From positions 1 to 64,000 of the forward strand of contig JAGPFE010000012.1 in the NCBI GenBank assembly GCA_018056705.1: 64,000 bases of DNA, given 5' to 3'. Positions 18,950 to 57,478 of the stretch are shown here, piece by piece. The notes under the pieces were generated by a model. It saw only the letters and a program-made list of their open reading frames with translations. It did no database searches and was not told the origin of the DNA. Source of the DNA: Candidatus Hydrogenedentota bacterium. Lineage in GTDB: Bacteria > Hydrogenedentota > Hydrogenedentia > Hydrogenedentales > CAITNO01. Numbering within the stretch: position 1 is the first letter of the stretch; each line of letters opens with the position of its first letter. Position numbers and translations under genes: made by a program.

Positions 18950-19004
18950 ACCAGCGGTGGTAAACATTAGGTCTTTGGCATCTTCAACTAAAAGGAGACT
19001 GCAG

Positions 19005-20045
19005 ATGCGCAAAAAAGGTTTCACACTCATCGAACTGCTCGTCGTCATCGCCATCATCGGCATCCTGGCGGCCATCCTGTTGCCGGCGCTGGCCCGCGCG
19101 CGGGAAGCGGCCCGTCGTTCGTCCTGCCAGAACAACCTGAAGCAGTGGGGCCTGGTTTACAAGATGTACTCCAACGAGGCGAAAGGCGCCTTCCCGCCCC
19201 TGCAGGTGTACTACGACTGCGTGTTCCGCAATCCGCAGATCGGGAATGGCCTGGCAGCCGGTCCGCAACTGGCGGCCATATACCCTGAATACCTGACGGA
19301 TCTGAATATCGTTTTGTGCCCCTCCGATCCGGAACTGAGCACGCACCAGCGGGACATGTACTACCAGGCCGGGAACCCGGAAGGACAACCGGAAGGCAAC
19401 CCCCGGATGCCCTGCAATCCGGAAGAAATAGATAATTCCTATTTCTACCTGGCCTGGGTAATCGACCGGCCGGAAATCTGCCTTCCCCTGAACACCTTCC
19501 CCTTCGTCCAGTTGCTGACCATCGGTAATTTCAGCACGATTCCGGCGACGGCTCCCATGCCCGCCCAGGTTGGCGCGGCCCTGGAGAAATTTGCCGCCAC
19601 GCCGGGCGTGGTGCCGCTTATCGCCAGAAACGATGCCTCACAGTTAAGCAGCGTGCAGAACGCCGCCCAGAGCGATATTCAACTGGACAGCGCGTTCGCG
19701 GGCTATGGTAATGGCGGGGGTAACACGATTTACCGGTTGCGGGAAGGTATCGAACGCTTCCTGATCACGGATATCAACAACCCGGCCGCCAGCAACATGG
19801 CGCAGAGCACCGTGTTCATCATGTTCGACGGTTTCGGAACGGGATCTTCGGCCAACCTGTTCAACCATATCCCTGGCGGCTCGAACGTGCTGTACATGGA
19901 TGGCCACGTGGAATTCAAGCGTTACGTCGCGGTCCCGGGTATCGAGAACCTGGACGCCGCCACGGCTACCCAGAAAATGTACGGCTGCGAAGCCCCGATC
20001 CTGCCCACGGTGGCGACCTTCCTGGGCGCGCTGTTCGCCTCCTGA
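19005..20045 (+). CDS. Prepilin-type N-terminal cleavage/methylation protein (DUF1559-like, DG motif)
   Basis: 346 aa. The N-terminus [20 protein letters not shown] is a textbook type IV pilin-like signal cleaved after Gly5 by prepilin peptidase and N-methylated on Phe. The C-terminus has the DG motif of the family common in Planctomycetes, Lentisphaerae and Hydrogenedentes ([17 protein letters not shown]), here with ten rather than nine residues between His and Asp. Such proteins are pseudopilins or surface proteins. AAGGAG precedes the ATG. It has its own promoter and a strong terminator, so it is monocistronic. Confidence 0.95.
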
Positions 20046-33704: not shown

Positions 33705-34169
33705 GATGGCATCCTCTCGGGTTTTATCCGGCAGCGAACAGAAAACACCCCCGCCAAAGCGTCAAAGGCCTCCGGCTGCTACCATCGGGGGGAAGAAATC
33801 ATAACAGATACGCCCCTGGCACGCCAAACCCCGGATCCAGGACATCTATGCGTGAAATATGTAACGTCGTGTTTTTCGCGGGAAGCAGGTATTCCCTGGC
33901 GAGCGTGGGTTTACCAAGGATTTGTCCTCTCCGCGTTCGTCGAAATGACACGTGCTGTTGGACCGCTGGTTGTCGGGCTACCCTCCACATGACGTTTCAG
34001 CCCATTTCGCTCGAAGCGTGATTGAAATGGCCACCGATAACCGCACCCGCGAAAAGCGCGAACTGTACGCGGAACCTGCCGGTTAACATCCGGACCGGCC
34101 AGAATCCTATAATACTGTGAACTTCAAGATTACCGGTAAAGATTTTCAGAAGCAACGCAGGATTTCACG
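33705..34169. other. Divergent intergenic region with a dispersed repeat copy
   Basis: This 465-bp gap separates tpiA from the transporter. It holds one copy of the dispersed repeat core (CGCGTTCGTCGAAATGACA) at 33932-33953 and a degenerate inverted relic near 33995-34030. A possible promoter for the transporter is TTAACA (34083-34088) and TATAAT (34108-34113), though its 19-bp spacing is long. No gene is supported. Confidence 0.55.
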
Positions 34170-35357
34170 ATGAAAGGATCCCGGAGCGACGGATGGGTGA
34201 CGCGATTCGGACTGATCATGGCCATGGCGGGCAACGCGGTGGGCCTGGGTAACTTTCTTCGGTTTCCTGGCAAGGCGGCCCCCTACGGCGGGGCCTTCAT
34301 GATTCCCTATTTTCTGACGTTGTTGCTGGTCGGGATTCCCCTGATGTGGGTGGAATGGACCATTGGCCGTCACGGCGGGGGATTCGGTCACGGTACCACG
34401 CCCGGCATGTTCCACCGGTTGTGGAAACATCCCCTCTCGAAGTACCTGGGGGTCTTCGGCGTGCTGATCCCGGCCATGGTGGGCGTGTACTACGTGTACA
34501 TCGAGTCGTGGTCCCTGGGATACGCCTGGCTGACCGCCACCGGCCATTACTGGGGCCAGACCTCCAACGATGCCATGCGGGACGTGTTTAACCATTATCT
34601 TGGCCTGGACGGCAACGGGCCAGTATCCTTCTCCCCCCTGGCTTACCTGTTTTTCCTGGTAACGTTCGCGATCAATATCACGGTTTTCGCCCTGGGTATT
34701 TCAAAAGGCATCGAGGTGGTCGCCAAGTACTGCATGCCGACGCTGGTGGTGCTGGGCGTGGTGCTCATGGTCCGCGTGCTCACGCTGCCACCCGTCGATG
34801 GCCGCACCATCGGCGACGGCCTGGCACAGATCTGGTCCGTGCGGGACTGGTCCGTACTGCTCAAGCCGGACATCTGGCTGGCGGCATCGGGACAGATCTT
34901 CTTTACCCTGAGCGTGGGCCTTGGCATGATCCACACCTACGCGAGTTACCTGCGCAAACACGAGGACGTCGTGCTCAGTGGCCTGACCGCCTGCGCCACC
35001 AACGAACTGGTGGAAGTGGTCATCGGGGCCAGCATCGCCATCCCGGCGGCGGTGTTGTTTTTCGGCGTTTCCCAGGCCCAGGAAATCGCCGCGGGGGGAA
35101 CCTTTTCCATCGGCTTCTTTGCCCTGCCGGTCATTTTCCAGCAGATGCCGGGTGGGCAATTTTTCGGCACCCTGTGGTTTCTGCTGCTGTTCCTGGCAGG
35201 GCTGACCTCCTCGATGGCGATGTTCACGCCCCTGCTGGTGTTCCTGGAAGACGAACTGCAACTGCCCCGCCGCAAGGGTGTCATGCTGGTGGGCGCCATG
35301 GTGTTCATCATGATGCAACCCGTGATCCTGTTCATGAAACACGGCATGGTGGATTAA
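34170..35357 (+). CDS. Neurotransmitter:sodium symporter family transporter, N-terminal part (ends at an in-frame TAA)
   Basis: 395 aa. It is a clear SNF/NSS sodium-coupled amino-acid-type transporter: TM1 motif AGNAVGLGNFLRFPGKAAPY, then about nine more membrane spans. It stops at TAA (35355-35357). The next codons in the same frame resume the family sequence (LDYWMGEACLVLFVAIE), and the expected residue at the stop is Glu (GAA), one base from TAA. The family is normally 450-550 aa, so this product lacks the last spans unless the stop is read through, is a sequencing error, or the gene is decaying. The small-subunit gene is intact downstream. Confidence 0.85.
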   Translation: MKGSRSDGWVTRFGLIMAMAGNAVGLGNFLRFPGKAAPYGGAFMIPYFLTLLLVGIPLMWVEWTIGRHGGGFGHGTTPGMFHRLWKHPLSKYLGVFGVLIPAMVGVYYVYIESWSLGYAWLTATGHYWGQTSNDAMRDVFNHYLGLDGNGPVSFSPLAYLFFLVTFAINITVFALGISKGIEVVAKYCMPTLVVLGVVLMVRVLTLPPVDGRTIGDGLAQIWSVRDWSVLLKPDIWLAASGQIFFTLSVGLGMIHTYASYLRKHEDVVLSGLTACATNELVEVVIGASIAIPAAVLFFGVSQAQEIAAGGTFSIGFFALPVIFQQMPGGQFFGTLWFLLLFLAGLTSSMAMFTPLLVFLEDELQLPRRKGVMLVGAMVFIMMQPVILFMKHGMVD

Positions 35358-35369
35358 CTGGATTACTGG

Positions 35370-35738
35370 ATGGGAGAAGCGTGTCTCGTGCTTTTCGTGG
35401 CCATCGAATCCATCGTGTTTGCCTGGATTTTCGGGCTCAGGCAGGGCTGGGAGGAAATGCACCGGGGCGCGGACATCCGCCTGCCGAAGATTTTCTATTA
35501 CATCATCCAGTGGGTCACGCCGACTTTCGTGGTCGTGATCGTCATGTGGTGGCTGGGCGGCAGTTTTCGGGACAAACTGCTGATGGTGGGGGTTCCGCCG
35601 GAAAGCAGGCCGTTCCTCTGGCTGGCCCGGATCATAATGATCGGCATGCTCGTATTCCTGCTGGCAGGCATCCGCCACGCGTGGCGCACCCATCCGAAGT
35701 TTTTTGAAACCATCGAGAAGGAGCCCATTGAGCCATGA
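35370..35738 (+). pseudogene. C-terminal part of the same NSS transporter, in frame after the stop
   Basis: 122 codons from the first in-frame ATG, in the same frame as the preceding 395 codons and with only four codons between. It has two membrane spans (VLFVAIESIVFAWIFGL, VTPTFVVVIVMWWL) and a third (IIMIGMLVFLLAGI), as expected for the end of an NSS carrier. No ribosome-binding site precedes the ATG, so independent translation is unlikely. Together with 34170-35357 it restores a 522-residue carrier. Its stop overlaps the small-subunit start (ATGA). Confidence 0.8.
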
Positions 35739-35866
35739 GCCTCATCTCCTGGTGTTACATGCTGCTCACCTGGGCGGCCATCATCGGCCTGAACGTGTTC
35801 TGTTTCTACCAGATTTTCACGCGCCGGAATGGCGGAGAAAACACATCGCCTGGTAACAAGGAATGA
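35735..35866 (+). CDS. MetS-like NSS transporter small subunit
   Basis: A 43-codon gene starting inside the transporter stop (ATGA). The product begins MSLISWCYMLLTWAAIIGLN and has a single membrane span followed by a basic, polar tail (YQIFTRRNGGE). Many bacterial NSS carriers are followed by a one-span small subunit (MetS of the Corynebacterium MetPS methionine/alanine system is the known example). Position, length and topology fit; sequence identity could not be tested. Confidence 0.75.
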   Translation: MSLISWCYMLLTWAAIIGLNVFCFYQIFTRRNGGENTSPGNKE

Positions 35867-54982: not shown

Positions 54983-55192
54983 CTAAGACGGGTGGCCGGG
55001 AAGGCACCCAAAAGAAAGTTGAAGCAATGCGGGCCGCGGGGCAGGGACATCCCAATAAGCGGCCTGTTTTGCGGCATCCAGCCCCGGGAACAGGCTGGGT
55101 GCCACCCCGGAGGTACCAACGGGACTGGTGCCGCCGGATTTCGCTGGGATCGGCGCAGGGACGCGCCAGGCACACTCAAGGAGGATCGAACC

Positions 55193-56008
55193 ATGGGACT
55201 GAGGATCAACACCAACATCTCGGCGTTGAACGCGGGGCGTAACCTGCGGACGTCGACCACTGACCTGAACCGGAGCCTGGAACGCCTGTCGAGCGGGTTG
55301 CGGATCAACCGCGCCCGTGACGACGCGGCGGGACTGGCCGTCGCCGAAGGGTTCCGCGCCCAGGTGCGGGGTACCCAGGTGTCGCAGCGGAACGCCCAGG
55401 ACGGCATCAACATCGTGCAGACCGCGGAAGGCGGACTGACCGAGACCACGAACATCCTGCAGCGCATCCGCGAACTGGCGGTGCAGTCGGCCAACGGCAC
55501 CCAGAGCGACACCAACCGCGCCGCGATCAACACGGAAGTGACCCAGTTGCTGGGCCAGATCGACGCCATCGCCCTGCAGACCGACTTCAACGGCGTGGCC
55601 GTGCTCAGCGCGTCGCAGACCATCACGCTCCAGGTCGGCGCGTACACCAGCCAGACCCTCTCTGTCGTGGTGTCCGGAGCCAAAACGAACGACCTGGGCG
55701 TGAACAACGTCTCCGTGTCCACCATGGCCCTGGCCGTGTCGGCCATCAGCACGGTAGACGTGGCGTTGCGGAGCGTCAACAACCTGCGGGCCACGCTGGG
55801 CGCATACCAGAACCGCCTGGAGTTCACCATCAACACCCTGGCAATCCAGGAAGAAAACGCGGCGGCCTCTGAGAGCGCGATCCGGGATGCGGACATCGCC
55901 CAGGAAACCATCCGGTTCACCCGGAACCAGATCCTGGTCAACGCGGGCACGTCGGTGCTGGCCCAGGCGAACGTGCTTCCACAGACGGCCCTGCAGTTGC
56001 TGCGATAA
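55193..56008 (+). CDS. fliC: Flagellin (copy 1)
   Basis: 271 aa, short for a flagellin. It has complete D0/D1 N-terminal (MGLRINTNISALNAGRNLRT, LSSGLRINRARDDAAGLA) and C-terminal (NRLEFTINTLAIQEENAAAS, SESAIRDADIAQETI) coiled-coil regions, with almost no D2/D3 surface domain. This is the minimal filament-forming type. AAGGAGG precedes the ATG at 55193. A FliA promoter lies upstream with a leader of about 200 nt rich in GGA motifs, which could be CsrA sites. It is the first of two near-identical copies. Confidence 0.97.
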   Translation: MGLRINTNISALNAGRNLRTSTTDLNRSLERLSSGLRINRARDDAAGLAVAEGFRAQVRGTQVSQRNAQDGINIVQTAEGGLTETTNILQRIRELAVQSANGTQSDTNRAAINTEVTQLLGQIDAIALQTDFNGVAVLSASQTITLQVGAYTSQTLSVVVSGAKTNDLGVNNVSVSTMALAVSAISTVDVALRSVNNLRATLGAYQNRLEFTINTLAIQEENAAASESAIRDADIAQETIRFTRNQILVNAGTSVLAQANVLPQTALQLLR

Positions 56009-56038
56009 GCAGTTGACACAGTTGAACCGTGATTTTTT

Positions 56039-56069
56039 CCCCGGACCCGCCGTTCCCGCGGGTCCGGGG
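56039..56069 (+). promoter_or_regulatory. GC-rich hairpin between the flagellin genes
   Basis: CCCCGGACCCGC/GCGGGTCCGGGG forms a strong stem. The T-run lies before, not after it, so it is not an intrinsic terminator for the plus strand. It may protect the 3' end of the first flagellin message or separate the two expression levels. Confidence 0.5.
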
Positions 56070-56198
56070 TAACCCCATGATGGAAAGGAGGTGGTAAGAA
56101 CGGGATCCTGGCGGCTTGGGATAACCGCCGGGACGGCAAGAACGGCAACCAAAGGCTGGGAGGGATGCCCGGCCTGAAACACGCAAGGAGGTAAGACC

Positions 56199-57014
56199 AT
56201 GGGACTGCGCATTAACACCAACATCGCGGCTCTGAATTCGAACCGCAACCTGCGGACGTCGACCGCCGACCTGAACCGAAGCCTGGAACGCCTGTCGAGC
56301 GGGTTGCGGATCAACCGCGCCCGTGACGACGCGGCGGGACTGGCCGTCGCCGAAGGGTTCCGCGCCCAGGTGCGGGGCTCGCAGGTATCGCAGCGGAACG
56401 CCCAGGAAGGCATCAACCTGGTGCAGACCGCGGAAGGCGGCCTGAGCGAGACCACGAACATCCTGCAACGCATCCGCGAACTGGCGGTGCAATCGGCCAA
56501 CGGCACCCAGAGCGACACCAACCGCGCCGCCCTGAACACGGAAGTGACCCAGTTGCTGGGCCAGATCGACGCCATCGCCCTGCAGACCGACTTCAACGGT
56601 GTGGCCGTGCTCAGCGCGTCGCAGACCATCACGCTCCAGGTCGGCGCGTACACCAGCCAGACCCTGGCGGTGATGGTTTCCGGTGCTAAAACGAACGACC
56701 TGGGCGTGAACAACGTCTCCGTGTCCACCATGGCCCTGGCCGTGTCGGCCATCAGCACGGTAGACGTGGCCCTGCGGAGCGTCAACAACCTGCGGGCCAA
56801 TCTTGGCGCGTACCAGAACCGCCTGGAGTTCACCATCAACACCCTGGCAATCCAGGAAGAAAACGCGGCGGCCTCTGAGAGCGCGATCCGGGACGCGGAC
56901 ATCGCCCAGGAAACCATCCGGTTCACCCGGAACCAGATCCTGGTCAACGCGGGCACGTCCATCCTGGCGCAGGCGAACGTGGTGCCCCGAACGGCACTGT
57001 CTCTGTTAGGCTGA
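56199..57014 (+). CDS. fliC: Flagellin (copy 2)
   Basis: 271 aa, the same length as copy 1. I count about 17 differences by eye, mostly conservative and near the ends (for example NIAALNSNRN and the final PRTALSLLG), so about 94% identity. The D0/D1 regions are complete and the central domain is absent. AAGGAGG precedes the ATG. No sigma-28 promoter is seen in the 190-bp gap, so it is probably read from the promoter at 54956. FlaG follows 17 bp later. Confidence 0.97.
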   Translation: MGLRINTNIAALNSNRNLRTSTADLNRSLERLSSGLRINRARDDAAGLAVAEGFRAQVRGSQVSQRNAQEGINLVQTAEGGLSETTNILQRIRELAVQSANGTQSDTNRAALNTEVTQLLGQIDAIALQTDFNGVAVLSASQTITLQVGAYTSQTLAVMVSGAKTNDLGVNNVSVSTMALAVSAISTVDVALRSVNNLRANLGAYQNRLEFTINTLAIQEENAAASESAIRDADIAQETIRFTRNQILVNAGTSILAQANVVPRTALSLLG

Positions 57015-57031
57015 TCTGAAGGAGGCGGAGC

Positions 57032-57424
57032 ATGGACATCTCGCGCATAACCGGCATGGGCGCGCCGCGACCGGCGGATGCGGTCCCGTCGGGGCGTGCG
57101 CCTGCTCCGCGGCCTGAATCCTCTCCAGATCCCGCCCGGTCCGGAGAGGTGACGCGTCAGGTTGAATCCCTTCGCAAGCCGCAAGTGGAACCGGAACCGG
57201 AAAAGCAGGACCAGCGCGAAGCCGCGCGGACGGAAGAAAGGCGTAACCCGCAATTGCCCCAGGTCAGCGCGCGCATCCGGTTCGAGGAAACGCTGAACCG
57301 CCCGATCATCCAGTTCCTGGATGAGAACCGGCAGGTGATACGCCAGTATCCGCCGGAGGCCCTGGTCCAGTTTTCCCTGCGGTTCCGCGAACTGCAGCAA
57401 CGATTGTTCGACCAGCGCGGCTGA
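57032..57424 (+). CDS. flaG: FlaG-family flagellar protein
   Basis: 130 aa. A variable, Pro/Arg/Glu-rich N-terminal 85 residues precede the conserved FlaG C-terminal segment (IRFEETLNRPIIQFLDENRQ then VIRQYPPEALVQF). FlaG affects filament length. GAAGGAGG precedes the ATG. It ends the flagellin operon; no fliD or fliS follows, which is unusual. Confidence 0.9.
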   Translation: MDISRITGMGAPRPADAVPSGRAPAPRPESSPDPARSGEVTRQVESLRKPQVEPEPEKQDQREAARTEERRNPQLPQVSARIRFEETLNRPIIQFLDENRQVIRQYPPEALVQFSLRFRELQQRLFDQRG

Positions 57425-57443
57425 GGCCGCGGTCTGAACGCGG

Positions 57444-57478
57444 GCCGGCTCTCAGGAAGGTGAGGGCCGGCTTTTTTT
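57444..57478 (+). terminator. Intrinsic terminator of the flagellin operon
   Basis: A GCCGGC...GCCGGC stem with inner CTCA/TGAG pairs is followed by seven T residues, reaching the stop of the convergent phosphatase gene at 57477. Confidence 0.85.

Follow-up and report, generated by a model that had tools for sequence, protein, structure and literature searches.

A single in-frame TAA interrupts an otherwise constrained LeuT-type transporter gene that precedes a conserved small gene

Among the closest described systems to the gene reported here is LeuT of Aquifex aeolicus, a member of the NSS/SLC6 family (PF00209) in which a salt bridge between Arg30 and Asp404 closes the outer gate and TM10 is termed a gating helix (PMC11886772). 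Our gene resembles LeuT in being a 12-TM long form with a DExD motif starting TM10, but differs from it in that the equivalent of Glu402 is replaced by an in-frame stop. As a lesion, a single altered base in a gene that is intact elsewhere also recalls ordinary nonsense alleles and point pseudogenes of bacterial genomes and draft assemblies; nothing notable sets our allele apart from these, and it is too young for decay. The MetPS layout consists of an NSS transporter gene and, after it, the gene for a very small membrane protein. MetPS of Corynebacterium glutamicum, in the account of Troetschel et al. (2008; doi 10.1021/bi801206t) as cited in PMC5105988, combines the NSS transporter MetP with the small subunit MetS. 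Our locus likewise has an NSS transporter gene followed by a gene for a very small membrane protein; unlike MetS, this gene has no match at threshold in Pfam or NCBIfam, and the resemblance seen is one of layout.

The analysed stretch (the window, 64,000 nucleotides) comprises bases 1-64000 of a 71.7 kb contig in a 3.3 Mb draft assembly of 120 contigs that is 94.1% complete, with 0.59% contamination. Among named genomes, its nearest relatives are metagenome-assembled genomes of Candidatus Hydrogenedentota. Positions 34170-35738 of the forward strand are one continuous LeuT-type sodium symporter (NSS/SLC6) frame cut by a single TAA (Table 1), as had been claimed when the two open reading frames were described as one frame joined by a stop. 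The Pfam SNF domain (PF00209) is recognized in the 5′ part (5.7e-45, profile positions up to 410) and picks up in register in the 3′ part, at profile positions 416-479. Translated across the TAA, the gene matches LeuT over nearly its whole length (phmmer, 483 bits, 1e-143, query residues 6-499). Comparison with the nearest relative, a genome of the same genus (G001), aligned 522 of 522 residues with no gap at 91% protein identity, with 93% identity in the 5′ part. Since both alignments run across the TAA, the 126 codons after it belong to the same gene and are not a chance reading frame. With the SNF domain along its full length, in both halves, the gene is an NSS member by descent; the uninterrupted 12-TM frame of its intact relatives is broken before TM10, and the product as written is truncated. 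The ribosome site, originally called intact, lies at the usual distance from the start, but is modest rather than strong.

Table 1. Positions of the transporter gene, its in-frame stop and neighbouring features in the window
Feature	Positions	Strand	Remarks
Probable ribosome site of the transporter gene, GCAGGA	34150-34169	+	From the sequence; modest match
LeuT-type NSS gene, 5′ part	34170-35354	+	395 codons; TM1-TM9 and the pre-TM10 loop
In-frame TAA	35355-35357	+	Opposite LeuT Glu402
LeuT-type NSS gene, 3′ part	35358-35735	+	126 codons; TM10-TM12; purifying-selection signature
First in-frame ATG past the TAA	35370-35372	+	Long-standing internal Met codon in the family, not a new start
Native transporter stop (TGA)	35736-35738	+	TGA at the native end in 11 of 11 family relatives examined
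Small gene	35735-35866	+	43 aa with one probable membrane helix; its start codon overlaps the native TGA (ATGA)

The stop falls within the LeuT motif Asp401-Glu402-Met403-Asp404, at the outer end of TM10. The codon at this site is Glu in 92 aligned homologue segments (47 GAA and 45 GAG), Asp in one and a stop in none; a few of these segments are repeats of one gene present as two loci, and four more, low-identity (~31%) second matches whose residue at this site cannot be compared, were set aside. This bears out the expectation of a Glu. Because all aligned relatives read through the position, homologues that end naturally here are excluded, and we rejected the idea of a shorter family form with its natural end at this residue.

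Within the family, the transporter gene is present in 13 of 17 genomes, counting the window's own. All nine genomes with a completeness of 90% or more and a contamination of 5% or less have it, and it is intact in all eight besides the window's; the G001 gene is intact and has GAG at the TAA site. The sole internal stop among the family transporter genes is that of the window genome, and the disabling change is thus missing from orthologues, as in a nonsense allele. We also searched the window genes for other breaks by comparison with G001: the transporter was the only broken gene found, and the other genes compared were intact. In the genome as a whole, no second NSS gene was found at the thresholds used.

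Two further features of the window came up in the comparison with G001. On the reverse strand, 54986-57451 contains two adjacent matches to one G001 gene, L133:8259-9260 (73% at 57263-56268 and 60% at 56242-55262), which suggests a tandem duplication in the window genome relative to the same-genus genome. Elsewhere, 18985-19207 and 19690-19927 have many similar copies (~70-87% DNA identity) on about 20 contigs of G001 and are probably part of a large paralogous gene family.

A GAA precursor changed by one G-to-T substitution, as originally proposed, is plausible rather than proven: Glu codon usage in the window genes (435 GAA and 269 GAG) shows that the species prefers GAA, but the nearest relatives carry GAG. 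GAG to GAA to TAA is a natural path, with GAG to TAG to TAA as another possible one. At 35350-35369, the TAA creates a short direct repeat (GGATTA ACT GGATTA CT GG), as the base change makes the local GGATTAACTGG resemble the adjoining GGATTACTGG. A repeat-templated origin of the change is possible, and the likeness may be a one-in-three coincidence.

We asked how long the 3′ part could have been released from selection. Relative to G001, dN/dS was 0.040 before the stop and 0.063 after it, with dS of ~1.2 in both parts, and the 3′ part contained no second stop, frameshift or indel. The higher 3′ value is not a sign of decay, since the intact pair G001 and G013 shows a similar difference (0.119 in the 5′ part and 0.151 in the 3′ part). 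When amino-acid changes were polarised with ten outgroups, the 3′ part showed 9 for the window lineage and 7 for that of the relative, and the 5′ part 12 for each. A lack of constraint on the 3′ part over 5% of the branch would predict 16 changes (Poisson, P(≤9) = 0.036), and over 10% of it, 25 changes (P = 0.0003). The model sets the window branch at half the pairwise dS and expects 8 changes under constraint, which makes the bound a rough one. As a longer release would have left a trace, the stop is either very young (less than ~5% of the lineage's branch) or not in the true population consensus. After the stop, amino-acid changes are not in excess, which agrees equally with a very young change and with an artefact. 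An old pseudogene is rejected by this constraint analysis.

Together, these results favour a model, to which we give a probability of about 0.93, in which a gene for a LeuT-type sodium-coupled amino-acid transporter, under strong selection until very recently, acquired a TAA by one base change, as a young null allele or as a strain or assembly variant. Programmed or suppressor-dependent read-through of the UAA to a full-length protein would likewise keep the 3′ part constrained. However, this constraint is fully explained by the recency of the change, and no homologue has a stop at the position; thus, there is no relative in which a stop is conserved with coding sequence beyond it. No UAA-reading (ochre-suppressor) tRNA was present among the 45 tRNA genes found, although in a genome that is 94% complete one may be missing. 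RNA structure after the stop did not exceed that of shuffled sequence (z = -0.16), which gives no indication of a stimulating RNA structure, and TAA is the normal end of 10 of the 30 window genes. We therefore regard read-through as very improbable. The same use of TAA as an ordinary stop led us to reject its reassignment as Glu; the other window genes have no internal stops in comparison with G001.

It is similarly hard to credit a two-piece transporter, in which the product of 34170-35354 and a separately started fragment assemble in the membrane. The in-frame ATG at 35370 is 12 bases past the TAA, within reach of termination-reinitiation, but it is an ancestral internal codon (of 11 relatives, 8 also have ATG here and 3 have GTG). 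No new ribosome site or recognisable ribosome-binding sequence was found before this ATG, no relative is split, and there is no sign of adaptation. If the gene did operate in this way, it would mean that a LeuT-fold transporter can function in two pieces, divided immediately ahead of TM10. Taken together, a real and fixed TAA that is tolerated through separate halves (by reinitiation at 35370) or through read-through has only a slim chance of being correct. Of the four options originally listed, fresh pseudogene, strain variant and assembly error survive, while programmed read-through is unsupported. The most fitting interpretation of the stop is a mutation of very recent date, or a variant of strain or assembly, and not a new mechanism.

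Within this preferred reading of a recent change or variant, we lean slightly towards a real, fresh nonsense mutation that is fixed or frequent in the population sampled, judging from the assembled sequence. The consensus looks good, given the long contig (71.7 kb), the low contamination (0.59%) and the intactness of the other window genes compared, and a random consensus error of exactly this form would be rare. Against a real loss, no decay accompanies the stop. Moreover, this is the genome's single NSS gene, and it is kept intact by the eight other quality-passing family genomes; since true loss would be unusual under these circumstances, the balance tilts somewhat towards an artefact or a minority strain. 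A sequencing, assembly or strain-collapse artefact, with a Glu codon in the population consensus and an intact gene, is accordingly a substantial possibility, at somewhat under even odds. It would explain why decay is wholly absent from the gene, and drafts such as this one, with 120 contigs, may mix strains. G-to-T changes are a common class of damage and sequencing error. The likeness of GGATTAACTGG to GGATTACTGG could also reflect a templated error, subject to the same one-in-three chance of a match. On the other hand, if the contig is well covered, a consensus error would be uncommon.

What follows for the cell depends on whether the base is real. If it is, the single-base change of codon 396 to TAA would halt the ribosome before TM10 and yield a 395-residue fragment without TM10 and TM11-12. 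As this product would lack the equivalent of Asp404 as well as TM10-12, loss of transport is expected. The downstream gene would probably be translated less, through polarity: ATGA overlaps usually couple translation, and a premature stop may for this reason lower expression of the small gene. If the population consensus has another base, the stop would be a strain variant or assembly artefact, and the gene would simply be intact.

The small gene itself is intact, as originally claimed. A small gene follows the transporter gene in all 12 family genes examined (including L003-L013), with its start overlapping the native stop, as ATGA in the window and as GTGA in G001. The family proteins have 36-45 residues and share invariant M1, W6, M9, W13, I16, N20, C23 and F24. 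A profile built from the family small genes had a match immediately downstream of the transporter gene in 52 of 77 distant loci (among L016-L095, from many phyla) and in 55 of 77 after iteration. It gave no match in four kinds of control stretch, namely the other strand, upstream and two further downstream. Overall, the small proteins have ~30-50 aa and one helix, and the start of the gene often overlaps the end of the transporter gene in an ATGA. When the 12 family members and 8 distant examples were compared with Pfam and NCBIfam, no model was matched at threshold, and neither library places 35735-35866 among the MetS-type small subunits. Judged by sequence and position, the small gene appears to encode an accessory microprotein that is widespread with LeuT-type transporters and lacks a family model in Pfam and NCBIfam; our literature search was short, and a prior description is possible.

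The stop itself serves as a caution, in that one base in a draft genome may cause a transporter to be reported as lost. The microprotein gene is more interesting than the stop. As LeuT is the main structural model of its family, the question of whether related transporters act together with a small partner is directly testable.
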